The position numbers and the translations under genes were made by a program. A DNA stretch of 64,000 nucleotides from Nitrospirota bacterium. Lineage in GTDB: Bacteria; Nitrospirota; Nitrospiria; Nitrospirales; Nitrospiraceae. Below, in pieces: positions 3,819 through 25,578 of this stretch; within the stretch, counting starts at the first letter, position 1; each line of letters begins with the position of its first letter. Where the stretch lies: assembly GCA_040755395.1 (NCBI GenBank), contig JBFMAX010000011.1, positions 62,001 through 126,000 on the forward strand, given 5' to 3'. The notes below the pieces were generated by a model that searched no databases, had not been told where the DNA came from, and saw nothing but the letters and a program-made list of their open reading frames with translations.

Positions 3819-4586
3819 ATGAGAGGCACCGGGGACAAGGCTCGCGACGCCGCATCCGACTATTCGTCAGCAATGGTAGCCCAGATGATGACACCCGGCG
3901 TCATTCAAATTCCGGGCGATGTGCTAGTCAGCGAAGCCGCGCTGGTCATGCAACGCGAACAGGTGCCGTGCCTCCTGGTAAAAGACACCGAGACCTTGAT
4001 CGGCATCGTCACCCCGAGCGACATCGTCAAGAAAGTCGTCGCACAAGGGTTGGAGCCTCACAACATCGAGGCCCGCGCGATCATGTCCAGACCGGTCCGC
4101 TCGATCGAATTCGACCGCCCCATCGAAGAAGCCACGACGCTCATGGCTTCGACCGGAGTGCCGTTGCTGATCGTCACCCACCAGGATCAACCCGTGGGAA
4201 TTTTGACGGCCCATGACCTTGTGTTCCGGCCCAAGCGATGCCACACGCAGATTCCCGCTTTCGTCCGCACCTCCGACGGGCGCGAGCGGGGCGCCGATCA
4301 CAAGGCCACGATCACCCAGTTGAGCCACGCGGGCGCGTTCGTCGAAACGTCGAGTCTGTTGCTGCCCGGGACGGACGTCACGCTTTCGTTCTCCCTGCCC
4401 GGCTCGAGGGTTCCCATCCACGTGAACGGCGCGGTCGTCGCAAGCTATCAACCGCCCCATCAGTCCGAGGGCGAACGGCACCGTCGGCCTCCCGGGGTGG
4501 AAATTCAGTTCACCGCTCTGTCCGACGAAGACCAATCGCGTATCAGCGCATGGGCCGTCCAGAATCTCTACAAGAAATCCTGCTAG
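3819..4586 (+). CDS. CBS-pair protein fused to a C-terminal PilZ-like domain
   Basis: The 255-residue protein has two CBS motifs in tandem (residues about 22-140; MMTPGVIQIP, LIGIVTPSDIV, IMSRPVRSIEF, VGILTAHDLVF), a fold that binds adenine nucleotides. Residues about 145-250 resemble PilZ: a basic start (KRCHTQIPAF), an LSHAGAFVE turn where canonical PilZ has DxSxxG, and a terminal helix. The Asp of the DxSxxG motif is Gln here, so cyclic-di-GMP binding is not assured. No membrane segment is visible. The gene is divergent from the MNIO-like gene. Inference: a cytoplasmic regulator that combines adenylate sensing with a PilZ output. Confidence 0.75.
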   Translation: MRGTGDKARDAASDYSSAMVAQMMTPGVIQIPGDVLVSEAALVMQREQVPCLLVKDTETLIGIVTPSDIVKKVVAQGLEPHNIEARAIMSRPVRSIEFDRPIEEATTLMASTGVPLLIVTHQDQPVGILTAHDLVFRPKRCHTQIPAFVRTSDGRERGADHKATITQLSHAGAFVETSSLLLPGTDVTLSFSLPGSRVPIHVNGAVVASYQPPHQSEGERHRRPPGVEIQFTALSDEDQSRISAWAVQNLYKKSC

Positions 4587-4695
4587 GGTCAGCGGTCCTC
4601 CCCACGTTGGCCTTTTGACCAGCCGCCGACTGCTTGGTAGAATTCGCGCTCTGCGTCGGTCTTGCTGTTTCTTCCAACGCAAAGGAACCAAATCG

Positions 4696-5757
4696 ATGGC
4701 GCAAACCCGAAGCCGCCCGACTCCGACCAAAGAAGAGGTCCTGGCCCAGGTGCACAGCCTGCTGGACGGACCGGACGACGACCTGTCCAGCGTCCTGATG
4801 AAAGAAATCCTGGTGGGCGTCCTGCGGCTGCGCGAATCCCGCCTGGATCTGCTCGATCTCAAGATCGTCAACCGGGCGATGAAAGAGCTTCGCCACGCCT
4901 TTGGCGTGTTCCAGGCCTATCGCGACCGCCCGAAGATCAGCATCTTCGGTTCGGCCCGTACTCAACCGGACGATCCCAACTACCAACTGGCGTACCGATT
5001 CGCCCGCCTGATCGTGCAACACGGCTTCATGGTGATCACCGGAGGGGCTGACGGCATTATGCGGGCCTGTCAGGAAGGAGCCGGCCGGGAGAACAGTTTC
5101 GGAGTCAATATCCTGTTGCCGTTCGAACAGGGACCGAACGCCGTGATCGCCGACGATCCGAAGCTCATCACGTTCAAGTATTTCTTCACGCGGAAGCTCA
5201 CCTTTCAGAAGGAAGCGAACGCGATTGCGTTGTTCCCAGGCGGCTTTGGCACGCACGATGAAGGCTTCGAAATCCTGACCTTGACGCAGACCGGCAAAAG
5301 CGACCCTCAGCCGATCGTCTGCCTTCAGGCGCCGGGGTGCGACTATTGGAATCATTGGTACGACTTCATCGCCGACCAGTTGTTGGGGCGCGGCCTCATC
5401 AACCAGGAGGATCTGAGCCTGTTCAAAATCTTCGACAGCGAGCAAAAAGCGGTGGCGGAAATCCTGACGTTCTATCGCCGTTATCACTCCATCCGGTTCG
5501 TAGGTCGTCAGTTGGCCATGCGCCTGAAGCATCCGCTCTCCGATGTACAGGTGGCCGACGTGAACGACCGTTTCAAGGACCTGCTGACAGAAGGTGTATT
5601 CGAACAGCGGGGTCCTCTCCCGGAGGAACTCGACGAGCCGGCCGTGAAGGACCTGCCTCGCCTGGTGTTTCTCTTCAACCGAAGGAGCGCCGGCCGGCTT
5701 CGCCAACTCATCGACCATCTGAATACGTTGCCGGGGCCGGTGCTCCCGGCCGAGTGA
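4696..5757 (+). CDS. LOG-family (TIGR00730-like) protein
   Basis: The ATG at 4696 gives 353 residues. The central Rossmann domain has ISIFGSARTQPDDP, VITGGADGIMRACQEGA and the diagnostic PGGFGTHDEGFEILTLTQTGK-type motif (PGGxGTxxE). Family members cleave nucleoside 5'-monophosphates (cytokinin-releasing phosphoribohydrolase) and are often misannotated as lysine decarboxylases. N- and C-terminal extensions (about 90 and 100 residues) make it longer than the plain LOG fold of about 190 aa, as in the longer PpnN-like bacterial proteins. An in-frame upstream start (4615) is possible but lies close behind the preceding gene. Confidence 0.8.
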   Translation: MAQTRSRPTPTKEEVLAQVHSLLDGPDDDLSSVLMKEILVGVLRLRESRLDLLDLKIVNRAMKELRHAFGVFQAYRDRPKISIFGSARTQPDDPNYQLAYRFARLIVQHGFMVITGGADGIMRACQEGAGRENSFGVNILLPFEQGPNAVIADDPKLITFKYFFTRKLTFQKEANAIALFPGGFGTHDEGFEILTLTQTGKSDPQPIVCLQAPGCDYWNHWYDFIADQLLGRGLINQEDLSLFKIFDSEQKAVAEILTFYRRYHSIRFVGRQLAMRLKHPLSDVQVADVNDRFKDLLTEGVFEQRGPLPEELDEPAVKDLPRLVFLFNRRSAGRLRQLIDHLNTLPGPVLPAE

Positions 5758-5836
5758 CCCCGGCGCCGCTCCTCCCGCGTTCCCGTCGAAAGACTCTTTG
5801 GCCTCCGTCGCCAGACATGGTATTCTGTGACGCGAA

Positions 5837-11458: not shown

Positions 11459-11706
11459 ATGCTCTCCTCCGCCGCCTTCAGCCCGAGCCATGAACCTGCG
11501 GGTGGCCATCTCGTTATCCCTCGCCCCGGGCCCTTGCGATCCCGCACGGATCGAACCACGCCCACCTTAGCCGTTCCGAGAAAGAGGGTCAAGGTACAAG
11601 CGTCCCGAAGTACAAGCGTCCCGAGGAAACACCGGAGCCGTTTGACCCTCTTATCCGAATTCCTTTATGATACACGTGACTTCCGTCCCGATCATCGGAG
11701 GCCGCG

Positions 11707-13143
11707 GTGCAGCGCCTGGGAGAGGGGTTGAAAGCCAAGGTTCAGTCGTTTGTCAACCAACCCACCGGCTTGGACGAAATCACCGTCGACGACCTCGCCA
11801 CCTCATCCAAGCTGCAATCCTGGGAAGCGGTTCAGATCCCCGAACGACTGAAGTTTTCCTCGCGGCTCGCCATCAAGCTGGTTCTGCTCTTTACGCTGAT
11901 CATCGCCTTCGTCCCCTGGACCCAGACCATCACGGTCACCGGCCAACTCTCCGCCTATTCGCCGTATGAGCGGCCGCAGGATATCGAGGCGCAGATCACG
12001 GGACGCATCAAGAAATGGCACATCTTCGAAGGTGTGCGGGTCAAGCAGGGAGACCTCATCCTCGAGCTGGAGGACGTCGATCCGAATTTCATGGCGCCGG
12101 ACCTGCTCTCCCTGCTCGAGCAGCGGAAGGTTGCGCTGGAGCAAACCCGCAAGGCCGCCCTGGAACGGGCCGAGCAGTTGGACAAGCGGATTAAGGAAAT
12201 GCAGAACCTGGTGAGAGCGGCCGTGCCGTCCGCTCAGGCTCGGGTCGTGGAGGCCGAAAACAAGGTCCGCGAGGCCCAGCAGAAGGTCGCCGCCGCCAAG
12301 ATTGCCGTCGACACGGCCGAGTTGAACGTCGATCGCCATCGACAACTAGCCGAGCGGGGCCTGGTGTCGCAACGCGAACTCGAACTGACGATTCAGGCAG
12401 CCATCGCGAGCAAGGCGGAGTTGCAGGCAGCCCAAGCTTCTTTGAAAGCCGCCCAGCAGGCCATGATGGCGTTGAGTTACGGCCGCGACCAGGTCAGCGC
12501 CGAAGTGCTGCAACGCTTGATCGACGCGGAAGCGGCCCGGGACGGCGCCTTCGCCGACGCCGCCAAGGCGGCTAACGAACTGGCCGATGTCACGCTCCGT
12601 TTGTCGAATGCCACGCAGCGGCGCGTAGCCAGCCGGATTCTGGCGCCGATCGACGGCACCGTCGTCCGGATGGCCGAAGTCGGCCCCGGGGAAACGGTGC
12701 GGCCCGGAGATAAGCTCGTCCGTATTTCGCCCGCTAGCATGGACAAGGCGATCGAGATGGTGGCCGACGGTCTGGACGCTCCCTTGCTGAACGTCGGGAG
12801 AAAAGTTCGAATCCTGTTCTACGGCATCCCGGCGATCCCGCTGCCGGCCTGGCCCGAGCTGATGGCCGGCACGTACGGAGGCGTCATCAAAGTGATCGAC
12901 CAGGTGGACGACGGCAAAGGCAACTTCCGCTTCTGGGTCGTGCCCGACCCCGAGGACCGGCCCTGGCCCGATCAGGCCCACGTCCGGCAAGGGACAAAAG
13001 CCATGGGATGGGTGATCCTCAATCGCGTCCCCCTCTGGTACGAACTCTGGCGTCGTTTCAATCTGTTCCCGCCCGACTATCAAGAACGGCCGCCCAGCCT
13101 GATCGATACGCTCCTGCCCAAGGCCGGCCGCGGTGCCAAGTAA
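11707..13143 (+). CDS. HlyD-like membrane-fusion (periplasmic adaptor) protein
   Basis: A GTG start behind CGGAGG gives 478 aa. A cytoplasmic N-terminus of about 50 residues precedes one transmembrane helix (residues about 58-75). Then come a lipoyl-like half motif (ITGRIKKWHIFEGVRVKQGDLILELED), a long Ala/Glu-rich coiled hairpin (about 125-300), the second lipoyl half (ILAPIDGTVVRMAEVGPGETVRPGDKLVRI) and beta domains. This is the layout of adaptors in type I secretion and efflux systems. It opens a plus-strand locus with a TolC-like protein and two ABC half-transporters, which points to an envelope-spanning assembly. Confidence 0.85.
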   Translation: MQRLGEGLKAKVQSFVNQPTGLDEITVDDLATSSKLQSWEAVQIPERLKFSSRLAIKLVLLFTLIIAFVPWTQTITVTGQLSAYSPYERPQDIEAQITGRIKKWHIFEGVRVKQGDLILELEDVDPNFMAPDLLSLLEQRKVALEQTRKAALERAEQLDKRIKEMQNLVRAAVPSAQARVVEAENKVREAQQKVAAAKIAVDTAELNVDRHRQLAERGLVSQRELELTIQAAIASKAELQAAQASLKAAQQAMMALSYGRDQVSAEVLQRLIDAEAARDGAFADAAKAANELADVTLRLSNATQRRVASRILAPIDGTVVRMAEVGPGETVRPGDKLVRISPASMDKAIEMVADGLDAPLLNVGRKVRILFYGIPAIPLPAWPELMAGTYGGVIKVIDQVDDGKGNFRFWVVPDPEDRPWPDQAHVRQGTKAMGWVILNRVPLWYELWRRFNLFPPDYQERPPSLIDTLLPKAGRGAK

Positions 13144-13265
13144 GCGTCGTTCTCCCGGCCTTTGCCCTGGGCGTCGTTCGTGTCGTCTCGCCTCCGGCAT
13201 GCGATCCGTTGTAGCAAATCAGTCGATGGGCGCAGCTTCTGCCCGAACAGAAAGGAGTGTGTACG

Positions 13266-14744
13266 ATGAGTCGCCTGTTTGCCGTCGTCGCCTGCTTCAT
13301 CTTGGCGACCTGGTCCGCGTCGAGCCAAGCGCTCGCCGCCGACGCGGCCAAGTCGAAGCCGTTGCCCCCCATTCCGCTCTCGCTGGACGAAGTGTTGGCC
13401 TGGGTGGACCGTTCGCATCCCCTGCTCAAAGGCGCCGGCACCGAGAAGGTGACCGCCAGAGGCAAATTGCTCAAGGCCCTGGGCGCCTTCGAGCCCGTCC
13501 TGGTCAACGACACGGAACTTGAGCGATTCATTCCCAGCGGGACGACCGACACCAGGACCGCCGGGTTCAACGACACGCTCATGGAGGTCCGGCATCCTTC
13601 CGGTCTCAGAGGGTCGGCCGGCATCCGGCAAGTGCTCGGGGGCCCCGCCAAAATTCCCGACCTGGCGTTCAGCGGGGACACCAATCAGGTCATTCTCGGC
13701 GGACTCATTCCGCTGTTGCGCGGCCTGATGATCAATCCTGAGGCGGCGGAACTCCAACGGTCGCAGTTGGCCGACCCGATGGCGGACGTCAAGATTTCGC
13801 AGACCCGCCAGGACCTCTTCCTGGCCGCCGCCACGCAATACTGGGATTGGGTCGCCGCCGTGAAGCTGGCCGACATTCAGAAACGCGCGCTCGGCGTCGC
13901 AGAGGATCGGGCGAAGCAGGTGGAGGGACGCGCCAAGGCCGGCGCCGTCGCGCCGCTCGACGTCGTCGAGGCGAATCAGGAGGTGCAGCGCCGCAGGGAA
14001 ATTTGGATCGCCGCCCAGCGCGCCGTCGAGCAGGAGCAATACAGATTGTCCATGTTCCTCTGGGAAAATCATGCCCCCGTGACGCCGCCGGCCGAGCGGG
14101 CGCCGGACCTGCCATCGCAAGCCGTCGTGCCGCCGCCGGAAACGGTGCAAGCCCACAAGCTTCAGGCCAAAGCCAATCGCCCGGAAGTCCGGCAGATCGG
14201 GATCGAGGCAAAGCTCAACAATATCGATCTGGAACTGGCCAAAAACAATCTGTTGCCTAGTTTGGACGTGGAGGCGGCGCCGGCGCGCGCCCCGGAAAAG
14301 TTCGTGCTGGGCCTCGGCTATCGATTCGGCGCCGAACTCCGCATTCCCATCTTCCAGCGCCGCAGCCGCGGTGAGGTGCTGGAAGCGCAGGGGAAGGCGG
14401 ATCGGCTCGTCCTCGTCCAGAAGTTCCGCGAACAGCAGGTCGTCGTCGATGTGGACAACGCGCTGTCCGCCGTCGAACGGGCCAAGGAGCGCATCGCCGC
14501 CGCCGCCGACTCGTTGCGGCTCGCCAAGACGCTCGAGGAGGGTGAACGCTTCCGCTTCAGCCTGGGCGCGACCAGCGTGCTCTTCGTGAACTTGCGGGAG
14601 CGCAATTCCGTAGACTCGGAGAACCAACTCGTCCGCGCCAAGGCGGATTACCAGAAAGCCCTGGCCTTCTATCAATGGGCGATCGGCGCGTGGGCAAAGA
14701 GCGAGGCGTCGGCCGTTCCGGTCACCTACCGGGCGCGCGAATGA
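13266..14744 (+). CDS. TolC-like outer-membrane factor
   Basis: The ATG at 13266 follows AAAGGAG (a GTG at 13257 is less likely). The 492-residue protein begins with a signal peptide (hydrophobic residues 5-20, cleavage near ALAADA). It has the OEP pattern of two alpha-helical repeats: LSLDEVLAWVDRSHPLL opens the first, and the second has ELAKNNLLPSLDV followed by GLGYRFGAELRIPIFQRRSRGEV. Such proteins form trimeric outer-membrane tunnels. Placement directly after the adaptor gene supports a shared machine. Confidence 0.85.
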   Translation: MSRLFAVVACFILATWSASSQALAADAAKSKPLPPIPLSLDEVLAWVDRSHPLLKGAGTEKVTARGKLLKALGAFEPVLVNDTELERFIPSGTTDTRTAGFNDTLMEVRHPSGLRGSAGIRQVLGGPAKIPDLAFSGDTNQVILGGLIPLLRGLMINPEAAELQRSQLADPMADVKISQTRQDLFLAAATQYWDWVAAVKLADIQKRALGVAEDRAKQVEGRAKAGAVAPLDVVEANQEVQRRREIWIAAQRAVEQEQYRLSMFLWENHAPVTPPAERAPDLPSQAVVPPPETVQAHKLQAKANRPEVRQIGIEAKLNNIDLELAKNNLLPSLDVEAAPARAPEKFVLGLGYRFGAELRIPIFQRRSRGEVLEAQGKADRLVLVQKFREQQVVVDVDNALSAVERAKERIAAAADSLRLAKTLEEGERFRFSLGATSVLFVNLRERNSVDSENQLVRAKADYQKALAFYQWAIGAWAKSEASAVPVTYRARE

Positions 14745-14875: not shown

Positions 14876-16546
14876 ATGGATCCAAACCGCTCCGAGAGCC
14901 ATCCTGTCACGCTCCAGTCGATGATCGGCCGTCTCGGCCTACTCCTGCGTCTGGAACGCCGGGTGCTCGGCCTGATCGGTTCCTACTCGGTGGCGATCGG
15001 GCTCTTCTCGCTCATCGTCCCGTTGACCGTTCAAGAGCTGGTCAACACCTTCGCGTTCGCCATCCAACCGATCACGATCGTGACGCTGGCCGCCGTCATG
15101 GTGCTGACCCTGTTGTTCGTCGGCGCCTTCCGCGCATTGCAGTTTTTCGCCGTCGAGATTTTGGAACGACGGGTTTTCGCGCGCGTCGCCCTGGCGATGA
15201 CCGAGCACCTGCCTCACCTCAAGTCCCAAGGCTTCAAGCCGCGCTACGCGAATTATTTTCTGGAGACGGTGCTGATGCAACGCGCCCTCTCGGTGCTGCT
15301 CATCGACGTCGTCAACGTCGTCGTCGGGGGCGCCATCGGCATGACGATCCTGGTCTTCTACCATCCGTATTTTTTGCTGTTCAACGCGGTGCTCCTCGCC
15401 GGCTTCGGCGCGATCATGTTTCTGCTCAGCCACGGAGGCCTGCGGGCGACGATCCAGATGTCCCACGCCAAGTACGACACGCTGCACTGGATGCAGGAGA
15501 TTGCGTACAACCTGCTGCATTTCAAATCGACCGTCAGCGAACCGCTGCTGATCAAGAAAACGGACGAACTGGTCAACGCCTATGTCGCCGCGAGACGCAC
15601 GCGCTTCCACGTCCTGATGCGGCAGTATCTCGGCTCCGTCGGGTGGCAGGCGTTGGGACACAGCGGTCTGATCGCTACGGCGGGGTGGTTGCTCTCGATC
15701 GGTCAACTGACGTTGGGCCAGTTGGTCGCGGCCGAGGTCGTCGTGGGCACGCTGCTGCTGAACTTCGACGCCGTCGTCAAGCGCATGAGCCACATCTTCT
15801 ACTTCTTCACCGCGCTGCACGAGCTGGATTTTCTCTTCTCATTGCCCAAGGACGAAGACACGGCGACGCTGTCCGTGCCGCTGCCCGATCCGACGATTCA
15901 CGGCATTCGGGTGACCTGCAAGGACCTGACGTTCGTCCATCATGCGGGGGCTGTGCCGATTTTCCAACGCTTCAACCTTGAAGTGACGCCGGGAGAGAAG
16001 ATCGGCATCTATGCGACCAGCACCATCGCCAAGACGACGCTGGCTCGTGTCCTGGCCGGCATCGAGTCGCCGACCTCCGGCGTGATCCGTTACAACGGGG
16101 TCGATCTGCGCCATCTCGATTTGCAGACGATCAACAAATGCCGCGGGTTCGTGCTCGATTCCCAACTCTCGCTGTTCGAAGGGACGCTGGAGGAGAACAT
16201 CGTTCTGGGCCGCACCAATATCCCCTACAGCGACGTGCGATGGGCTCTGCGGTTCGCCGAACTGGAAGAAGAAGTGGACGCCCTCCCGCAGGGGCTCAAG
16301 ACCCACGTTCGGGCTCCCGGCATGATCTTCGCCCCGACCCATATTCTCCGCATCTTGGTCGCCCGCGCGATCCTGTCGAGGCCGCAAATCCTGATCTTCG
16401 ACGGCATCCTCCACAATATGCAACCGACCGTTCGGGAAACGATCCTGCGGCGCCTCTGTTCGAAAGAAGAACCATGGTCGGTCATCTTCGTTTCCAACGA
16501 TCCCAACCTCACCCCCCACGTGGATCGCCGCATCGTCCTGGACTAA
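14876..16546 (+). CDS. ABC half-transporter with degenerate nucleotide-binding domain (paralog 1)
   Basis: The 556-residue protein has about five to six membrane helices (residues 25-320) of the type I secretion exporter kind, then an ABC domain. In that domain the Walker A glycines are Ala (A380xxxxA385-K386-T387), the signature LSGGQ is replaced by FAPTH (485-489), the catalytic Glu after Walker B D509 is Gly510, and the switch His is Asn541. The LSLFEGTLEENI segment and the Walker lysine remain. ATP hydrolysis by this subunit therefore seems unlikely. It is followed at 96 bp by a close paralog with the same losses, so a stable non-hydrolysing or regulatory heteromer is plausible. Confidence 0.85.
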   Translation: MDPNRSESHPVTLQSMIGRLGLLLRLERRVLGLIGSYSVAIGLFSLIVPLTVQELVNTFAFAIQPITIVTLAAVMVLTLLFVGAFRALQFFAVEILERRVFARVALAMTEHLPHLKSQGFKPRYANYFLETVLMQRALSVLLIDVVNVVVGGAIGMTILVFYHPYFLLFNAVLLAGFGAIMFLLSHGGLRATIQMSHAKYDTLHWMQEIAYNLLHFKSTVSEPLLIKKTDELVNAYVAARRTRFHVLMRQYLGSVGWQALGHSGLIATAGWLLSIGQLTLGQLVAAEVVVGTLLLNFDAVVKRMSHIFYFFTALHELDFLFSLPKDEDTATLSVPLPDPTIHGIRVTCKDLTFVHHAGAVPIFQRFNLEVTPGEKIGIYATSTIAKTTLARVLAGIESPTSGVIRYNGVDLRHLDLQTINKCRGFVLDSQLSLFEGTLEENIVLGRTNIPYSDVRWALRFAELEEEVDALPQGLKTHVRAPGMIFAPTHILRILVARAILSRPQILIFDGILHNMQPTVRETILRRLCSKEEPWSVIFVSNDPNLTPHVDRRIVLD

Positions 16547-16642
16547 GGGCTTGCGTGTCACTCCGGTGAGCGTCCATACTTCGGCCGAATCCCGCCTCCG
16601 CGCCGTACAGCCGCGGCGGAGATTCGCCAAGGACTCCGGTGA

Positions 16643-18322
16643 ATGAGCGCCGACGGCTCTGAGCGTCATCCTCCGCACGTCTCCCAGGCCGTGGCGACGC
16701 TCGCGCGCCTGGTGTTGCTGCTCGGGTTGGAGAAGCGCATCCTCGCGATCATCCTGACCTATGCCGTCGCCATCGGGCTGTTTTCCCTCATCGTCCCGCT
16801 GACCGTCCAGGAGCTAGTCAACACCTTCGCCTACTCGATCCAACCGATCATGATCGTGACGCTCGCCGGCACCATGCTGGTGGGCCTCCTGTTTATGGGC
16901 GCGTTCCGCGTGCTCCAGGCCCGCGCGGTCGAAATTCTGCTTCAGCGCCTGTTCACCAGAATCGCGCTGGCCATGACCGAACACCTGCCGCGCTTCCGCG
17001 AAGAGGCGTTTTCACCTCGTTACGCCAACTATTTCATGGAAGCGGAACTGCTCCCCCGGGCGACGGTCGCCATGCTGGCCGACATCGTGAACGTGCTGAT
17101 ATCCGGTTCGCTGGGCATGCTCATTCTCGTCACGTATCACCCCTATTTCCTCGGCTATAACATCCTGCTAGTCAGTGGCTTCGTCTTTCTGATCGCCGTG
17201 TTCGGCCGAGGCGGATTCGAGATCACGCGGAAGGTTTCCCGACTCAACTACGACACCTTTAGCTGGCTGCAGGACATCGCCCACAACCGGCTGCACTTCA
17301 AGGCGACGGCCAGTCGGTCGTTGCTGCTCAGGAAAACCGACGAACTCGTGCGGGCCTACGTCATGGCGCGGCGGATACGGTCCGACATCCTGACCGGCAG
17401 CCAATACAAGAGCGCCGTCATCTGGCAGGCGTTCGGGCACAGCGGCATGATCGGGCTGGGCGGCTGGTTGCTGTCCATCGGCGACATCACGCTCGGCCAG
17501 TTCGTGGCGGCCGAGCTCATCGTCGGCGCCTTGCTCATGAACCTTGATACCGTCGCCAGGCGGATGTACGCCGTGTTCTATGCCTTCACGTCACTCTCGG
17601 AACTGGCCACGTTCTTCGGCCTGCCGAAGGAACGCCCCAGCGGGCTGGTGTCCGTGTCCCCGCCCGATTCGGTCCTGTTCGGGGTCAGGCTGACCTGCAT
17701 CGACGTGTCCTTCGCCTATCCGGGCCAATTGCCCGCTTTTGAACACTTCAACATCGAAGTGGCGCCCGGCGAGAAAGTCGCCGTCTTCTGCGGCGACAGG
17801 GTCGGGAAAACGTCGTTGGCCCTGGTACTGGCCGGGCTCTATCTTCCGACATCCGGCGTGATCCGCTACAACGACGTCGACCTGCGCGACGTCAGCTTGG
17901 AGTTCATCAACGCCTGCCGAGGACTGGTGTTGGATTCCCACCTCTCGCTGTTCGAGGGGACGATCGAGGAAAACATCACCCTTCGTCGCGAATCCGTGCG
18001 TTTCGATGATCTGCAATGGGCGCTGCGGTTCGTCGAACTGGAGGACGAGGTGGACGCGATGCCGCTGGGACTGCAAACGCCGGTGGACGCGCGCGGCAAG
18101 AACTTCACCAAGAGTCAAATCCTGCGGATTCTCGTGGCGCGGGCGATCGTCGCCCGGCCCCAGCTTCTGATTCTGGACGGCACGCTCCACAATATGGAGC
18201 CGGCGACCAGGGACATGATCCTCCGCCGGCTGTGCTCCAAGGAGGAGCCCTGGTCGGTGATCTTCGTGTCGAACGACACGACGCTGGCCGCGCGCGTGGA
18301 CCGCCGGATCACGCTGACCTGA
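16643..18322 (+). CDS. ABC half-transporter with degenerate nucleotide-binding domain (paralog 2)
   Basis: The 559-residue protein is paralogous to the preceding gene throughout: IGLFSLIVPLTVQELVNTF and RILVARAI are shared. Its Walker A is nearly intact (C383xxxxG388-K389-T390). The signature is FTKSQ (488-492), Walker B D512 is followed by Gly513 instead of Glu, and the switch His is Asn544. Loss of signature, catalytic Glu and His in both paralogs indicates shared ancestry of the degeneration rather than decay of one copy. The membrane region again has five to six helices. No peptidase (C39) domain is present. Confidence 0.85.
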   Translation: MSADGSERHPPHVSQAVATLARLVLLLGLEKRILAIILTYAVAIGLFSLIVPLTVQELVNTFAYSIQPIMIVTLAGTMLVGLLFMGAFRVLQARAVEILLQRLFTRIALAMTEHLPRFREEAFSPRYANYFMEAELLPRATVAMLADIVNVLISGSLGMLILVTYHPYFLGYNILLVSGFVFLIAVFGRGGFEITRKVSRLNYDTFSWLQDIAHNRLHFKATASRSLLLRKTDELVRAYVMARRIRSDILTGSQYKSAVIWQAFGHSGMIGLGGWLLSIGDITLGQFVAAELIVGALLMNLDTVARRMYAVFYAFTSLSELATFFGLPKERPSGLVSVSPPDSVLFGVRLTCIDVSFAYPGQLPAFEHFNIEVAPGEKVAVFCGDRVGKTSLALVLAGLYLPTSGVIRYNDVDLRDVSLEFINACRGLVLDSHLSLFEGTIEENITLRRESVRFDDLQWALRFVELEDEVDAMPLGLQTPVDARGKNFTKSQILRILVARAIVARPQLLILDGTLHNMEPATRDMILRRLCSKEEPWSVIFVSNDTTLAARVDRRITLT

Positions 18323-18435: not shown

Positions 18436-19221
18436 GTGCTCGGTCGGCTTCGCATCACATGGCCCAGCGGGTCGCAGCTTTTGATCAGCGCGCTGATCGC
18501 AGGGCTGGGCTGGGTCAGCGGCCAGGCATTGAGCCAAGTCGATCAAGACCTGCGCGTCATGTACACCGAGTACACGCTCGGCGCGGCCGACTTGGCTCAC
18601 ATCTCCGCCGATGTGATGCGGTACCGGAATACGATCATCCGCGCGCTGGAAGCCCCCAACAAGAAGGAATTCGAGCGCATTACGGAGTCCCTGCCGTACC
18701 AGCGGGCCCGCATCCAACACGCCATCGACCGTTACGCCGCCGCGAGCCTGCGGGTGTCGCGCAGCGGACGCAGCGAGCCTCGTGACCTTCAGGCGGTCCG
18801 CGACAGTCTCGACCAATACTTCTCCGCAGCCAGCTTGACGATTCAACTGCTGACGCAGGAATGGAACGCTCCTTCGGCCAAGGAAGCGACCGAGCTCCGT
18901 CGCAAAGCCGAAATCCACGCCGCGGACAATTCCGGCCCCAAGATGATTCAGGTCAGCCTGGCGTTGGATCGACTCATCGAAACCGTCGCGGACGTCGCCA
19001 AAGACATGCGGGATGAGGGCACCAGGACCATCCGCAGCACCAGTGCGATGCTGGTCGGCGGGAGTTTTTTCATCGCGTTGCTGAACTTGTTCCTCACGCG
19101 GTCGCCGGGATCGCGGCTTCAGGCTGCCCCCCCGCCCGCACGACGCGAAAAGCAGGAACCGACCATTTCGCCGATCGCCGTCCCCGCCGAAAGCCCCAGC
19201 TCGGTCTCCCGAAGCGACTGA
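18436..19221 (+). CDS. Four-helix-bundle-type membrane protein
   Basis: A GTG start behind GAGGAAGG gives 261 aa. One membrane helix near the N-terminus (SQLLISALIAGLGWVSG) and another near residue 205 (AMLVGGSFFIALLNLFL) flank a 170-residue helical, periplasmic-like region. That region (DQDLRVMYTEYTLGAADLAHI and following) resembles the 4HB ligand-binding module of chemoreceptors. No HAMP or signalling domain follows; the short tail is Pro/Ser-rich. It comes 113 bp after the second ABC gene and may belong to the same locus, perhaps as its sensor. Family assignment is tentative. Confidence 0.6.
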   Translation: MLGRLRITWPSGSQLLISALIAGLGWVSGQALSQVDQDLRVMYTEYTLGAADLAHISADVMRYRNTIIRALEAPNKKEFERITESLPYQRARIQHAIDRYAAASLRVSRSGRSEPRDLQAVRDSLDQYFSAASLTIQLLTQEWNAPSAKEATELRRKAEIHAADNSGPKMIQVSLALDRLIETVADVAKDMRDEGTRTIRSTSAMLVGGSFFIALLNLFLTRSPGSRLQAAPPPARREKQEPTISPIAVPAESPSSVSRSD

Positions 19222-20048: not shown

Positions 20049-20981
20049 CTATGTCACGCGGCGTCCCGCGCGAACGCGGCCCAGGATGCGGTAGACCAGG
20101 CGCGCGACGGCGAACTGCGGCGCCACAAACCCTTCGATCGGCGCGATCTCGCTGACGTCCATGCCGACGATGCCCGGCCCCTTGGCCAGCGCCGTGACCA
20201 AGGCCAGTGTGTCGTACCACCCGAGCCCGCCCGGCTCCGGCGTGCCCAGCGCCGGGACAAGCGAGGAATCCAAGCCGTCGCAGTCGAACGTCAGATAGAC
20301 GGGCCCCTTGCAGGCCTTCACCACGTCTGGCACCCATCGCGCGGCGCGCCCTTCATAGGGACCGGCCGGGTCCAGGATGTGGCACGCGAAAAACGTGGTC
20401 ACGGAGGGAGTCCGATTGATCAAGTCGATCTCTTCCGGCGAGATCGACCGGATCCCGACCTGCACCAGCGGCAATCCGTCGTCGACCACGCGGGCCATGA
20501 CGCTGGCATGGCTGTAGGGGTTGTCCTGGTAGGCCTTGCGCAGGTCCCCATGAGCGTCGATCTGTACGACACAGAGGTCGGGATAGCGTCTCGCGTGGGC
20601 GCGGATTGCGCCGAGCGCGCCCGTATGTTCTCCGGTCAGGGTGAGGACGAACCGACCAGGGGTCACGTAGGGACCGACAAAGGCTTCAATAGCCTCCACC
20701 GCCTCCCGGTCGACTTTTCCCTGAAGCGCCAGCGGGGCGGCGGTCGCAATCCCGCCCCATTCCCGGTAGGTTTCGCAACCCAGGGTCTCGTCGTACAGCT
20801 CGACTTGTCGGGACGCCTCAATGATCGCCAACGGTCCCCGGTCCGAACCGCGAACGTAGCTGGAGGTGTGTTCGTAGGGCGCCGGAAGGACATAGACTCC
20901 GGCGTGATCCGGATGGCACCAGGGTTCGCCGATGCCGAGAAAGTTCTGCTCCTGGCCGAGCCAGCTATGAGGAAGGGCCAT
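20049..20981 (-). CDS. speB: Agmatinase/ureohydrolase family protein
   Basis: The 310-residue protein keeps the manganese ligands of the arginase/agmatinase fold: GEHTGALG (usually GGDHS), DAHGDLR (DxHxD), SHASVMARV and FDCDGLDSSLVPALGTPEPGG (DxDxxD). It would hydrolyse agmatine to putrescine and urea. It follows a pyruvoyl-dependent arginine decarboxylase by 57 bp, which supports agmatine rather than arginine as substrate. The Asp-to-Glu change in the first motif and a Ser in place of Pro after DxDxxD are mild departures. Confidence 0.88.
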   Translation of the reverse strand: MALPHSWLGQEQNFLGIGEPWCHPDHAGVYVLPAPYEHTSSYVRGSDRGPLAIIEASRQVELYDETLGCETYREWGGIATAAPLALQGKVDREAVEAIEAFVGPYVTPGRFVLTLTGEHTGALGAIRAHARRYPDLCVVQIDAHGDLRKAYQDNPYSHASVMARVVDDGLPLVQVGIRSISPEEIDLINRTPSVTTFFACHILDPAGPYEGRAARWVPDVVKACKGPVYLTFDCDGLDSSLVPALGTPEPGGLGWYDTLALVTALAKGPGIVGMDVSEIAPIEGFVAPQFAVARLVYRILGRVRAGRRVT

Positions 20982-21038
20982 CGCTTACCCGCTGGCCTGT
21001 ATACCGCCGGGCGGCGCGCAGCCGATGCGCGTCGACGC

Positions 21039-21614
21039 TTACGGACGGCGGCGGACCTTCTTGGGCAGATTCTCCGGCGGAATGAAGACGGCCAAGGCCA
21101 CGACCGTGGTCCATCTGTTGGGCCGCCCGATCGCGGACTGGGTGATGTTCAACGTCCTGACGATCTTGCCGCCCATTTTAAAGACCTGTTCCCGCTCCTT
21201 CCAGGCCTGATTGGCATCGAACTCGATCCCCAACGTCGTGGCCAGCATCTGGGCCGCCAGGTCTTCCGTATACTCGCCGGATTCCTCGTCTGTTTCGCCG
21301 TAGGCATGGTGTTCCGACAGATACCCGTAGGTGCGGCGGTCCGTCGGAATCGCGAGCCCGATGGAAGCGGAGATCAACCGGTTCCGCTCGTTGGTCTCCG
21401 AGCGAGCCATCACGCAGAACGTGATCTCGCCTGGGTTGAGCAGCTTCTCCCCGCGTTTGCGCGGGATGATCTTGCAATTGGGCGGGAGAATCGACGACAC
21501 GCTGACGAGATTGCAATACGCCACGCCCGCGCTGCGAAGGGCCTGTTCGAAGGACGCCAACTTTTCCTTGTGTACCCCGACACCCCTGGTCAAGAACATG
21601 TGAGTCGGAACCAT
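21039..21614 (-). CDS. pdaD: Pyruvoyl-dependent arginine decarboxylase
   Basis: The ATG at 21614 follows GGGGGAAG and gives 191 aa. The family self-cleavage site lies in [11 protein letters not shown]: cleavage between Ser40 and Ser41 would create the pyruvoyl group on the larger chain. Downstream [15 protein letters not shown] and [17 protein letters not shown] match the family; PvlArgDC is best known from archaea and chlamydiae. It makes agmatine from arginine, the substrate of the adjacent agmatinase. An upstream in-frame start adds 18 unlikely residues. Confidence 0.92.
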
Positions 21615-21775
21615 CGTCGCGCTTCCCCCTTCGTCCGTGCGAACGCGATCGTCGCGTCCGCTGCCCACCGGATTTCATTCACGCGCCGCTCCCGACCACC
21701 GGCGCACAGGGCCGGTGTTGTACCAAGTTGAGGACGATTCCGCAATATGCCGGAGGGATTTTTTTACGATGTGAT

Positions 21776-23203
21776 TCACTGGCGGAGGTTGAGGACGAGC
21801 AGCCTGGGTTCCGTCATTTCCTCGATGGCGTACCGTACCCCTTCTCGCCCGAGGCCGGAATCCTTGACTCCGCCGTAGGGCATGTGATCCGCGCGGAACG
21901 TCGGGATTTCATTCGCCAACACCGTGCCCACGTCCAAGTTCCGAAAGGCGTGAAAGATCCGGCCCACATCTCGGGTGAAAACCCCGGCCTGCAAACCGTA
22001 GGGCGAGTCGTTCACAGCCGCCAATGCGTCCTCGAAGCGTTGATAAGGCGAAACGGTCACGACGGGCCCGAACACTTCCTGGCAGGACACCTTCATGGTG
22101 GGCGCAACGTCGCCCAAGACCGTCGCTTCCACCACCGAACCGGACCGCTTGCCGCCGAGCAACAGTTTCCCGCCCTGCGCCACCGCCTCGCCGATCCAGT
22201 CTTCCACCCGCCGGGCGGCGGCCTGGTCGATCAGCGGGCCGATGACCGTGTCGTCCTTGGCCGGATCGCCCGCTTTCAACGCAGCCACCCGGGCCAGGAG
22301 TTTCTCGGTGAACGGCTGGAGCACCGACTGATGGACGAAGATCCGTTGGACCGAGATGCACGTCTGGCCCGCATAGGTATAGCCGCCCGTCGCGCACCGC
22401 TGCGCCGCCACGTCCAGGTCCGCATCCGGCTCCACAATCACCCCTGCGTTGCCGCCCAGTTCGAGCACCACCCGTTTTTTCCCGGCTTTTCCTTTGAGCA
22501 TCCATCCCACAGCCGCGCTGCCGGTGAAGCTCAGCATCCTGAACCGATCGTCGACGACCAGGCGCTCCGCCACCGCGTTGTCGCACGGCACGACGCTCAC
22601 GGCGCCGATCGGCAGGCCGGATTCCAGCACGATCTCACCGAGCAGCAACGCCGTCAACGGTGTCTGCGGCGCCGGCTTGATCACGATCGGATTGCCCGCA
22701 GCCAAGGCCGGAGCGACTTTGTGCGCGACGAGGTTGAGCGGGAAGTTGAAGGGGGTGATACCCAGAATCGGCCCGATCGGGAACCGGCGAACGATCCCCA
22801 GGTAGGACTCGGTTCCCGGCGTCCAATCCATCGGCACGATCTCGCCGGGAACCCGCTTGGCCTCCTCGGCGGCGACGCTGAATGTCTGGACGGCGCGCGC
22901 CACTTCGCGGCGGGAATCGGTGATCGGCTTTCCCGCCTCGGCCGTAATGGTGCGCGCCGCTTCTTCCTGCCGTGCACGCAGCGCCACGGCGATCTTCAGC
23001 AGCGCTTCGGCGCGGGCGTGGGCCGGCAGCTCGCGCATGGCGGCCGTCGCCGTCACCGCCGTCTGCACCGCCGCCTCCGCTTCCGTCCGTTCTGCCCGGC
23101 AGATTTCGGCGATCGTCTCGCCGGTGAAGGGATTGATGACCTTGGCGGTCGAAGCCGATCGCCGCCACTGACCGCCGATGAGAAATGGGCGTGCCGCTTC
23201 CAT
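21776..23203 (-). CDS. NAD(P)-dependent aldehyde dehydrogenase
   Basis: The 475-residue ALDH-superfamily protein has ITPFNFPLNLVAHKVAPALAAGN (cofactor site), FTGSAAVG, ELGGNAGVIV (general-base Glu) and YAGQTCISVQR (catalytic Cys), followed by EVFGPVV. The overall pattern resembles lactaldehyde/GAPN-like or phosphonoacetaldehyde-type members. Its position between the polyamine genes suggests an aminoaldehyde (for example 4-aminobutanal), but the substrate is inference only. Length is normal. Confidence 0.88.
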   Translation of the reverse strand: MEAARPFLIGGQWRRSASTAKVINPFTGETIAEICRAERTEAEAAVQTAVTATAAMRELPAHARAEALLKIAVALRARQEEAARTITAEAGKPITDSRREVARAVQTFSVAAEEAKRVPGEIVPMDWTPGTESYLGIVRRFPIGPILGITPFNFPLNLVAHKVAPALAAGNPIVIKPAPQTPLTALLLGEIVLESGLPIGAVSVVPCDNAVAERLVVDDRFRMLSFTGSAAVGWMLKGKAGKKRVVLELGGNAGVIVEPDADLDVAAQRCATGGYTYAGQTCISVQRIFVHQSVLQPFTEKLLARVAALKAGDPAKDDTVIGPLIDQAAARRVEDWIGEAVAQGGKLLLGGKRSGSVVEATVLGDVAPTMKVSCQEVFGPVVTVSPYQRFEDALAAVNDSPYGLQAGVFTRDVGRIFHAFRNLDVGTVLANEIPTFRADHMPYGGVKDSGLGREGVRYAIEEMTEPRLLVLNLRQ

Positions 23204-23238
23204 CGGGCAGATCCCCTACGAGTCGGACATGAGGAGGA

Positions 23239-23517
23239 TTAGTCTGCGGACTCGACGGCGGACAGACCGCTGGGCGCCGCCTGCGGCGCGTCGTCCTCGG
23301 CCTGAGCGACAACGGCCTTGGCGATCAGTTCTTCCGTTCCCCAATCCCGAATCGCCTCGAGCGTGAATGCCTCGTAGGTGGACACCCCGTGGCAGGTGGG
23401 GCAGTCCGGCTTGGGGACTTTGCGGCGGAAGACTTCGTTCAGGCACGACATGCAGACCCACAGATCCGGTTCACCGTCCTCACAGGGTATGGACCAAAAC
23501 GCTTGTGCGGATGACAT
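23239..23517 (-). CDS. Small zinc-ribbon (rubredoxin-like) protein
   Basis: From the ATG at 23517, preceded by AAGGA, the protein is 92 aa. It has two CxxC pairs, C22-C25 (VCMSCLN) and C39-C42 (DCPTCHG), which would bind one zinc or iron. The tail is acidic and Ala-rich. The function is unknown. It lies between the DsbA-like and aldehyde dehydrogenase genes, 35 bp before the latter, in the same direction, so it is probably co-transcribed. A longer frame upstream has Arg-rich low-quality sequence and no RBS. Confidence 0.7.
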   Translation of the reverse strand: MSSAQAFWSIPCEDGEPDLWVCMSCLNEVFRRKVPKPDCPTCHGVSTYEAFTLEAIRDWGTEELIAKAVVAQAEDDAPQAAPSGLSAVESAD

Positions 23518-23578
23518 AGGCAGTTCCTTACCGACCATGTAAATGCGTGGACGAATGTGGCCGAACGGCGCAGCGCCG

Positions 23579-24286
23579 TTACGCGCCGCTCTTGCCTCGC
23601 GGGTGCGTCCGCGCCAGCAGCCGTTCGATCTCTTCTTCAAACACCTGATAAGGGAACGCCCCCGGAATCGTGACGGCCGCGTCTCCGCCGCGCCCGTCCC
23701 TCGTCAACATCAGGACGAAGCCCGGCGTCCCGCGGAATCCCCAACTGGTTCCCTCCTGCCGATCGTGGAAGATCGAATCCACATGCCGGCCGTCGCGCAT
23801 GCAGGTCGAGAAACTCGCGGCATCCAACCCCAGCGCCTTGGCGTGCCGGTCGAACGTCGCGGCGTCGAGCCGTCCGCCGTCCGCAAATAAGCGATCGTGC
23901 ATGGCCCAGTAGCGGCCCTGATCTCCGGCACAACGCGCGGCCACCGCCGCATCCAGTCCCGGACCCTGGTCGGCGCGGGGATAGTCCCGATAGACGAATC
24001 GGACCTTGCCGGTCTCGACATACTTGGCCTGAATACGGGGCCAGGTCTCGCGGAAGAATTTGAGGCAGTACCCGCAGGTGAAATCCGAGTATTCAATCAA
24101 GGTCACCGGCGCATCCGAATTCCCGCGGACCCGAAGATCCGCACCCGCCGCGTCGTTCCGCAAAACGCCGCCGACCGACAGCAGCAGCGTCAAGCAGGCC
24201 AACAGCGCAGGCCAGGGTACCCCCACCGCTCGTCCCGCTGTCGAGACGGTCGGTTCACTCGATCCCTGTGGGGATCGCGCCGTCAC
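23579..24286 (-). CDS. DsbA-like thiol-disulfide protein, exported
   Basis: The 235-residue protein has a membrane anchor or signal segment (residues about 24-42), then a thioredoxin fold with C71-G-Y-C74 in YSDFTCGYCLKFF. The insertion of helices (GRYWAMHDRLFAD, HAKALGLDAASF) and the cis-Pro region GTPGFVLM are typical of the DsbA/BdbD (Thioredoxin_4) group. It would catalyse disulfide exchange in the periplasm. Its start overlaps the stop of the deoxyhypusine-synthase-like gene by 4 bp. Confidence 0.85.
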   Translation of the reverse strand: MTARSPQGSSEPTVSTAGRAVGVPWPALLACLTLLLSVGGVLRNDAAGADLRVRGNSDAPVTLIEYSDFTCGYCLKFFRETWPRIQAKYVETGKVRFVYRDYPRADQGPGLDAAVAARCAGDQGRYWAMHDRLFADGGRLDAATFDRHAKALGLDAASFSTCMRDGRHVDSIFHDRQEGTSWGFRGTPGFVLMLTRDGRGGDAAVTIPGAFPYQVFEEEIERLLARTHPRGKSGA

Positions 24287-25386
24287 GCGGGCTTCCCCTT
24301 CTGCCCGAACCGCTCCATCAACCCCATCATCAGCAGCGGCCAGACCACCGTGGCATCGCTCAACACCTCGGCGAAACGGCCGCCTTCCTCGGGAGGCACG
24401 AACTTTCCCCAGGAGATCCCCTCCTGATACGTGCAGCCGCTCAACCCTCCCCAGTAATCGGGCTCAGGGCAGATCCGCACCCCGTACTGGAATCGCGGCG
24501 GCTTGACGTTCAACCCCAGCCGCATGTTCCCGATCTCGATATACGGCCCGACTTGCTGCGCCCAGTTCCGCGGCACCCCGCCGCCGATCGTGAAAATGCC
24601 CAGCCGCTTGGCCGAAAGGACGTGGTCCGTGTAGCTGTTCAAATCCAGATAGGGATTGAATGCCGGGCATGACCGATGAAGCGCCCGCAACACCGCGAGA
24701 TCGCCGCCGCCCTGCGCCTGAGCTCGAGCCAAATCCGCGGCTTTGCCCATCGCCCAGGTGCCCACATCCAGCCCCATTTCAGAATCGGTGAAGGCCGGGA
24801 TATACACCGGGACGTTCTTCAGATACGCGCTTTTCAGAATGCCGCTGCCTTCATACTCCTCGGCCAACGTCCGCCCCAATTCATGGGTCAGGATTTCCGA
24901 GGAAAGCGGCTGATCGGCGTTGATCCGCTTGAGCGTCTGCGACACCACGTGTTCCACGTAGTTGAGGTTGGCTTCCATCTCCAAAGTATCGTACACCCGA
25001 TTATAGCCCTTGCGAAACAACTCCTCATCGCTCATCGACGGACGGTGACGATAGTGCACCTTGCCGATGGACTCGCTGAGTCCGTGGGCGATCAACGCGC
25101 CGGTCGAGACGATGACCTGGACCATCCCATGATCGATCATGCTGCTGATGATCTTGCCCATTTTGGCGATCGTCATGGCGCCGGACAGCGTCAGGACGAC
25201 CGAACACTCCGGATCCTCGATCATTGCCACCAGCACCTCGAAGGCTTCGCCCAAGCGCCTGCCTCCGAAGGCGGTCTTCCGCATGGCGGCCAGGAGGTCC
25301 GAAAAGGATTTGATGTTGTCGGGATCAAGAGGCTCGAGCGCCTCCAACCCGTCTTTCGCGCCGTCGTGGAATTCACGTGCGGGCAT
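24283..25386 (-). CDS. Deoxyhypusine synthase-like protein (probable homospermidine/aminobutyl transferase)
   Basis: The ATG at 25386 gives 367 aa. Family landmarks are LTLSGAMTIAKMGKII, VSTGALIAHGLSES, YIPAFTDSEMGLD, FTIGGGVPRNWAQQ and GISWGKF, whose Lys matches the active-site lysine of eukaryotic deoxyhypusine synthase. Bacteria lack eIF5A, and bacterial homologues have been linked to homospermidine synthesis from putrescine or spermidine. The downstream arginine decarboxylase and agmatinase genes would supply putrescine, which supports that role. It is the first gene of the minus-strand cluster. Confidence 0.85.
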   Translation of the reverse strand: MPAREFHDGAKDGLEALEPLDPDNIKSFSDLLAAMRKTAFGGRRLGEAFEVLVAMIEDPECSVVLTLSGAMTIAKMGKIISSMIDHGMVQVIVSTGALIAHGLSESIGKVHYRHRPSMSDEELFRKGYNRVYDTLEMEANLNYVEHVVSQTLKRINADQPLSSEILTHELGRTLAEEYEGSGILKSAYLKNVPVYIPAFTDSEMGLDVGTWAMGKAADLARAQAQGGGDLAVLRALHRSCPAFNPYLDLNSYTDHVLSAKRLGIFTIGGGVPRNWAQQVGPYIEIGNMRLGLNVKPPRFQYGVRICPEPDYWGGLSGCTYQEGISWGKFVPPEEGGRFAEVLSDATVVWPLLMMGLMERFGQKGKPA

Positions 25387-25578
25387 GCTGCCTACTCCTG
25401 CTCGAACCAAGGGGACACGACACGAAAAACGCCTCCCTTATACACAACCTTTCGTATAGGCGTCAATTCGCGAGACTTCGGAAGAGGGACACGATACCGC
25501 AGTCGCCTTGCGCGTTGAGGGGGATTGATTAATCGACGGTACGTGCGGGACGAAGCACCCGAAGGCGACAGGACGGAG

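Follow-up and report, generated by a model that had tools for sequence, protein, structure and literature searches.

A locus encoding two ABC half-transporters beside HlyD and TolC

The DNA analysed here, hereafter the window, is a stretch of 64,000 nucleotides from a Nitrospirota bacterium (assembly GCA_040755395.1, contig JBFMAX010000011.1, positions 62,001 to 126,000 of the forward strand). It carries two tandem genes for ATP-binding cassette (ABC) half-transporters, ABC1 and ABC2, in an operon with genes for an HlyD-like adaptor and a TolC-like outer-membrane factor. Each half-transporter joins a transmembrane domain (TMD) to a nucleotide-binding domain (NBD). The features of the locus are as follows.

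11642..11671, + strand: sigma-70-like promoter match just upstream of the HlyD gene
11707..13143, + strand: HlyD-like periplasmic adaptor, 478 amino acids (aa) (open reading frame list; HlyD_3 match)
13257..14744, + strand: TolC-like outer-membrane factor, 495 aa (OEP match, 1.9e-33)
14876..16546, + strand: ABC1, type IV ABC-exporter-like half-transporter, 556 aa, with an elbow, six transmembrane (TM) helices and an NBD from about residue 345
16643..18322, + strand: ABC2, paralogue of ABC1, 559 aa, 58% identical to ABC1
18436..19221, + strand: 4HB_MCP_1 membrane-anchored four-helix-bundle sensory protein, 261 aa from a GTG start (Pfam)

The initial annotation of this locus, made from the letters alone, described two full-length, stop-free and highly similar half-transporters next to a TolC-like and an HlyD-like gene. 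All of this agrees with what we found: ABC1 and ABC2 share a strand, contain no internal stops and have the lengths and identity listed above, and the coordinates and the two neighbouring genes are right. The HlyD protein bears two marks of its subfamily, FVPWTQ following the TM helix and, close to the C-terminus, WYELWRRFN. Its AlphaFold2 model is of low confidence (predicted local distance difference test score, pLDDT, 65) and was drawn on for hairpin length only, giving a predicted hairpin of two helices of ∼87 residues. The 4HB_MCP_1 protein has no output domain. The promoter match is the sole sigma-70-like match in the region and is weak, with 0.9 expected by chance; a scan with Rfam returned 0 matches.

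Both NBDs have lost their catalytic residues

We aligned ABC1 and ABC2 with comparators taken from the same and related genomes, all of them Nitrospirota: 16 intact type IV exporters and a single soluble ABC ATPase. The comparators have LSGGQ or LSVGQ, and the D-E and H residues are present where the frame is complete. At the Walker A motif ABC1 reads IYATSTIAKTT (A380..A385-K386-T387), with Ala at both glycine positions, and ABC2 reads VFCGDRVGKTS, in which the first glycine has become Cys and GKTS is retained. ABC2 also retains the A-loop Tyr. The LSGGQ position is occupied by FAPTH (residues 485-489) in ABC1 and FTKSQ in ABC2, that of the catalytic Glu by Gly510 (Walker B D509-G510) and Gly513, and that of the switch His by Asn541 and Asn544. 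The initial annotation had reported the absence of the signature, the Glu and the His from both paralogues and the paired Ala of ABC1, and the alignment upholds each of these; it slightly understated the motif loss. The Q-loop Gln is also gone from both proteins (V-L-D-S with a one-residue insertion), the D-loop SALD has become LHNM in both, and the first Walker A glycine is missing from ABC2 too. The Pfam NBD scores of ABC1 and ABC2 are 39-45 bits, compared with 72-137 bits for nearly all intact NBDs of the same genome.

The fold is that of an exporter. An AlphaFold2 monomer model of ABC1 (pLDDT 80) has an elbow, six TM helices, a coupling helix at residues 213-218 and an NBD fold, and it matches HlyB, PCAT1 and MsbA, as a type IV ABC exporter does. 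Among solved structures the closest is HlyB of the HlyB/D complex (8dck; Z 28.9, root-mean-square deviation 2.6 Å, 533 residues aligned).

The losses are fixed across the Nitrospirales, in genes under purifying selection

Homologues of ABC1 with 43-80% identity occur in most members of the bacterial family, and the genomes that bear them are, by name, nearly all Nitrospira and close relatives (N. defluvii, N. moscoviensis, N. lenta). Among 134 non-identical NBD-bearing homologues of the Nitrospirales, the catalytic Glu, LSGGQ, the switch His and a full Walker A motif (GxxxxGK[ST]) are each found in none, and GK[ST] is retained in 28. Chance can be excluded, because identical losses are fixed in 134/134 proteins. 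Gly stands at the catalytic Glu position in 130/132 homologues, and H513, W534 and D542 are nearly invariant among the NBD-bearing members. Since these replacement residues are themselves conserved, a new constraint has taken the place of the old one. In a phylogenetic tree the intact exporters of the same genomes fall across a 100/100 branch from the degenerate group.

We estimated the ratio of nonsynonymous to synonymous substitution rates (dN/dS) by the Nei-Gojobori method as medians over pairs with dS of 0.1-1.0. The value was 0.054 for ABC1 (TMD 0.053, NBD 0.057), 0.083 for the ABC2 group, 0.131 for TolC and 0.051 for HlyD, the lowest of the operon members. The dead NBD of ABC1 is constrained as tightly as its membrane domain.

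The NBD has been lost altogether in three genomes of a sister family

In a sister family of the same order, the NBD-bearing members lack even the Walker A Lys, and in three genomes (loci L063, L064 and L155) the ABC protein stops after the membrane domain, at 337-346 aa. All three TMD-only genes adjoin TolC and HlyD-family genes. A separate gene encoding the NBD was considered and rejected for L063 and L064: tblastn of NBDs against these loci gave chance matches only (E ≥0.07), the rest of those genomes not being searched. The trio nests within NBD-bearing relatives in the tree (100/100), so the loss of the NBD is derived.

Positions that are invariant in the NBD-bearing relatives are 91-100% kept in TM1-TM6 of the TMD-only proteins, 67% kept in intracellular loop 1 (ICL1) and 20% kept in the core of coupling helix 2. 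In the TMD-only genes dN/dS reaches 0.18 for the TM core and 0.49 for the loops; both regions stand at 0.09 in the NBD-bearing relatives. With the TM helices kept and the NBD gone, the function needs the TM helices rather than the NBD, and because the coupling helices decayed once the NBD was lost, only the NBD had held them in place.

A conserved glutamate in TM6

The TM6 motif VA(A/S)E places a Glu at E287 of ABC1. This residue is Glu in 46/51 Nitrospirales members and Gln in the other 5, Glu in 18/18 members outside the Nitrospirales, and Glu in 0/17 intact comparators, which have L, Y, N or V there. Q53, E54, R243, Q250 and Q282, together with the polar E27, are invariant across the Nitrospirales.

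Related loci occur in Bacteroidota and sphingomonads

Outside Nitrospirota our sample consisted of plasmid records. A tblastn search with ABC1 gave strong matches in Persicobacter (Bacteroidota) and in sphingomonads, and these loci are ABC-HlyD-TolC operons with degenerate NBDs. In the sphingomonad NBDs none of Walker A, LSGGQ, D-E and H can be recognised, and those of Persicobacter and Aureibacter are without LSGGQ, D-E and H. A Riemerella member keeps Walker A and a Glu and has lost LSGGQ, the Walker B Asp and H. The HlyD proteins of the plasmid loci share with the window HlyD a PWxQ motif and a C-terminal (Y/F)E(L/I)WR motif. A search of 72,556 plasmids with the window HlyD (E≤1e-15) returned 20 records, all in genera that have pseudo-ABC loci. 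In an unrooted tree, in which long branches are flagged, a 100/100 branch separates all 33 degenerate proteins from the intact Nitrospira exporters. The pattern spans much of one bacterial order and two other phyla.

The Persicobacter pseudo-ABC proteins (L186 and L189, 4470-6644) have an extra N-terminal region of ∼160 residues. Members labelled Armatimonadetes and Acidimicrobiia (L096 and L124) share 71% and 61% identity with Nitrospira proteins and lie on short contigs; they are probably misbinned contigs of metagenome-assembled genomes.

The ABC, HlyD and TolC genes are inherited together

The gene order HlyD-TolC-ABC1(-ABC2) is conserved among relatives, and the HlyD and ABC genes are nearly always adjacent. 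In one Nitrospira genus (L057, L058 and L162) the order is TolC, as three tandem paralogues, then ABC1 and HlyD. We searched 395 Nitrospirota genomes for the ABC protein (E<1e-40) and for HlyD (E<1e-25) and found each in 111, all of them Nitrospirales; the genomes listed for the two proteins coincide except for one each way (G155 and G401). Genome G155 has an orphan HlyD of the window type (L160, 7316-8605) with no TolC or ABC gene within 7 kb. ABC2 homologues also occur alone, and many genomes carry a single pseudo-ABC copy.

In 22 loci of relatives, an orthologue of the 4HB_MCP_1 gene comes directly 3' of the final ABC gene. At four orphan ABC2 loci (L027, L029, L033 and L039) a gene for a 465-aa PAS histidine kinase lies ∼100 bp downstream, and in L033 and L039 the next gene encodes a sigma54-type response regulator; a co-sensor role is possible for these kinase-linked copies. 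The neighbourhood clusters contained no conserved substrate-like gene; a substrate may be encoded at a distance.

DabB/DabA is a gradient-driven inorganic-carbon pump. A dabA gene (PF10070) or a dabB/dabA pair adjoins the operon at L063 (2497-10244), L064 (4444-11731), L155 (7352-14001), L059 (15475-18723) and L198 (1357-5659). These are sister-family genomes of the Nitrospirales and, independently, one Sphingobium plasmid in which dabA is directly upstream; dabB/dabA adjoin the TMD-only loci. A NhaR-type LysR regulator gene lies beside the operon in several sister-family loci (NCBIfam, above cut-off). These neighbours hint at a link to pH, sodium or carbonate homeostasis, against which stands the window genome, where dabA is not adjacent. 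The literature searched held no description of a link between DabA and HlyD.

The operon of the window is adjoined by a cluster on the − strand (20049-25410) of agmatinase-like, pyruvoyl arginine decarboxylase, aldehyde dehydrogenase and deoxyhypusine synthase genes, and this synteny is retained across genera. Deoxyhypusine synthase is uncommon among bacteria.

Proposed function

From the residues at the catalytic positions, it is well supported that the NBDs of the ABC1/ABC2 family do not hydrolyse ATP. The comparison of sequences further shows strong purifying selection, co-inheritance with the adaptor and channel, and a selected form that has dispensed with the NBD. We judge the chances to be even that the system is a tripartite export conduit, built like type I secretion, whose inner-membrane protein is a transporter independent of ATP hydrolysis. 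This protein is probably driven by some other source of energy or else serves as a regulated gate. In the mechanism we propose, an ion gradient would drive the cycling of the TMD dimer, and the likeliest proton- or cation-coupling residue would be the TM6 glutamate (E287 in ABC1), analogous to the glutamate ladder of SbmA/BacA. Ion coupling is suggested by this Glu together with the SbmA/BacA precedent. HlyD and TolC would carry the substrate outward, and the dead NBD dimer, where kept, may serve as a cytoplasmic clamp, regulatory platform or sensor that docks on the coupling helices.

Several observations weigh against this proposal. Most members hold their NBD under selection equal to that on the TMD, which means that the NBD must have some role, and members of the ABC2 type might bind ATP, since GK[ST] and the Walker B Asp persist in them. 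The Riemerella member is less degenerate, with a full Walker A and a Glu. The TMD-only genes evolve somewhat faster (dN/dS 0.23-0.29), and at L155 a stop breaks the HlyD frame (4419-5822). Of 51 Nitrospirales members, 5 have Gln in place of E287, and the Glu may be shared by descent instead of being retained for coupling. Transport itself is deduced from the presence of HlyD and TolC.

Alternative explanations

The chief competing explanation is a sensory or gating module: the pseudo-ABC dimer would be a gate that senses a ligand or nucleotide, or a co-sensor, and would either control the HlyD-TolC conduit or pass signals on through partner proteins. We consider this unlikely but worth keeping in view. 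The periplasmic 4HB sensor without an output domain that follows the last ABC gene, the kinases and response regulators next to orphan ABC2 genes, and the strong constraint on an NBD without catalytic residues are all consistent with it. The initial annotation had itself allowed that the proteins may be structural or sensory, and the 4HB gene and the kinases beside the orphan copies leave room for that. The unit common to the three phyla, however, is ABC-HlyD-TolC, an export architecture in which TolC would be superfluous for a pure sensor, and the 4HB and kinase genes are lineage-specific, not being seen in the sister-family, Bacteroidota or sphingomonad loci. It is quite improbable that the TMD dimer is a passive scaffold or channel that merely anchors HlyD and TolC: HlyD is indeed the most conserved member of the operon, but the invariant polar positions of the TM helices (E27, Q53, E54, R243, Q250 and Q282) go beyond the needs of an anchor. 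More doubtful still is the use in trans of an intact NBD that belongs to a different ABC protein of the same cell. The genome has ∼40 intact NBDs, and some ABC importers share ATPases. The protein's own NBD, however, is still fused and under selection and would block docking, and no conserved ATPase gene was seen beside the operon, the conserved neighbourhood clusters containing no intact partner ATPase. The TMD-only members lack the coupling helices needed to engage any NBD, and the decay of these helices argues against borrowing. These proteins also make it unlikely that another ATPase supplies the energy, as the initial annotation had suggested, although NBD-bearing members might still draw on one.

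An NBD that only binds nucleotide could also act as the motor, with ABC2-type NBDs cycling by ATP binding and release, or by very slow hydrolysis, through GK[ST] and the Walker B Asp. The GK[ST] of 28/134 members and the A-loop Tyr of ABC2 fit such a motor, as does the stable hold on ATP by the degenerate sites of heterodimeric exporters (PMC7756269). In those heterodimers the partner site is intact, whereas both are dead here; moreover, the ABC1 clade has Ala at both glycines, the Walker A Lys is missing from the sister family and the whole NBD from three genomes, and we regard this motor as improbable. Gene decay after duplication is scarcely credible. It would account for the missing catalytic motifs, and one ABC2 copy (L042, 7382-9481) is split, with its TMD and NBD pieces in different frames, possibly through a frameshift or an assembly error. 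Decay is excluded by the dN/dS values of 0.05-0.08 (over 89 and 50 sequences), the fixed replacements and the conserved synteny, and full-length genes in three phyla also speak against it. The initial annotation had proposed a maintained envelope assembly without ATP-hydrolysing sites, to be read as decay if close homologues were intact and selection relaxed; with 0/134 homologues intact and dN/dS at this level, it is the maintained assembly that stands.

Relation to known systems

ABC exporters are defined by ATP hydrolysis. The locus has the three-part gene set of type I secretion (HlyB-HlyD-TolC; PrtD and LssB types), HlyB of 8dck is the best fold match of ABC1, and the best NCBIfam models for the ABC proteins are of the NHLM/LssB/PrtD type, far below their cut-offs. 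Type I secretion requires a functional NBD, whereas none of the 134 homologues has the catalytic set; the Nitrospira proteins also lack a peptidase-like N-terminal domain, the HlyD subfamily is distinct and the NBD is absent in three genomes. The system is built as a type I secretion system yet departs from that family in its energy source.

SbmA/BacA consists of ABC TMDs minus the NBD and coupling helices and is run by protons (PMC13316013). The Nitrospirales proteins resemble these transporters (SLiPTs) in an ABC-exporter TMD without an ATPase and in a conserved acidic residue in the membrane. The loss of both NBD and coupling helices is a feature of the TMD-only Nitrospirales members only; the window proteins and most members retain both. 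SLiPTs work alone as importers, carry an additional TM0 domain and descend from a YddA ancestor, whereas the Nitrospirales system has an HlyB-like TMD, HlyD and TolC partners and, mostly, a dead but retained NBD. SbmA has a glutamate ladder and here only the conserved TM6 Glu was seen. SbmA was not among the fold or sequence matches listed for ABC1, and the AlphaFold2 model has no TM0 helices.

Heterodimeric exporters with one degenerate site transport by means of the other, catalytic site (PMC7756269). ABC1 and ABC2 share with TmrAB, TM287/288, BmrCD, TAP and the ABCC proteins the type IV fold, paralogous half-transporters and substitutions in the same motifs. Unlike in those heterodimers, neither paralogue supplies a catalytic site, and genomes with a single copy form degenerate sites only. 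EmrAB-TolC couples an ion-gradient-driven inner-membrane transporter to an HlyD-type adaptor and TolC (PMC8277102); its inner-membrane protein is a major facilitator superfamily carrier, whereas here the fold is that of an ABC protein. SecA_DEAD-associated loci of Planctomycetes, Nitrospirae and others likewise have type I secretion-like proteins minus a normal ABC ATPase, with several HlyD/M50 proteins (PMC4452313). We rejected a link to them: those loci lack an ABC protein altogether and are a different system, and we noticed nothing SecA-like in the conserved neighbourhood of the Nitrospirales operon. The literature searched held no report of an HlyD/TolC system with a wholly non-catalytic ABC subunit, degenerate or ATP-independent, and a search by Nitrospira locus tags returned nothing relevant.

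We tentatively suggest, at somewhat less than even confidence, that pseudo-ABC proteins with an FVPW/WYELWR-type HlyD and TolC form an undescribed class that spans three or more phyla and arose by conversion of an ABC exporter into a secondary transporter driven by ions. The steps of this conversion would be a partly degenerate NBD in Riemerella, a fully dead but kept NBD in Nitrospira and sphingomonads and, in the TMD-only Nitrospirales, physical loss of the NBD together with decayed coupling helices. If this is true, it would be a second route, besides SbmA/BacA, from primary to secondary transporter, with the intermediate stages still alive. The family would make it possible to test how an ABC TMD works without NBDs, what purpose a dead NBD serves and whether an ABC fold driven by an ion gradient can run a TolC-type conduit. 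It would also be a warning that many genes annotated as 'ABC transporter ATP-binding protein' encode non-ATPases.

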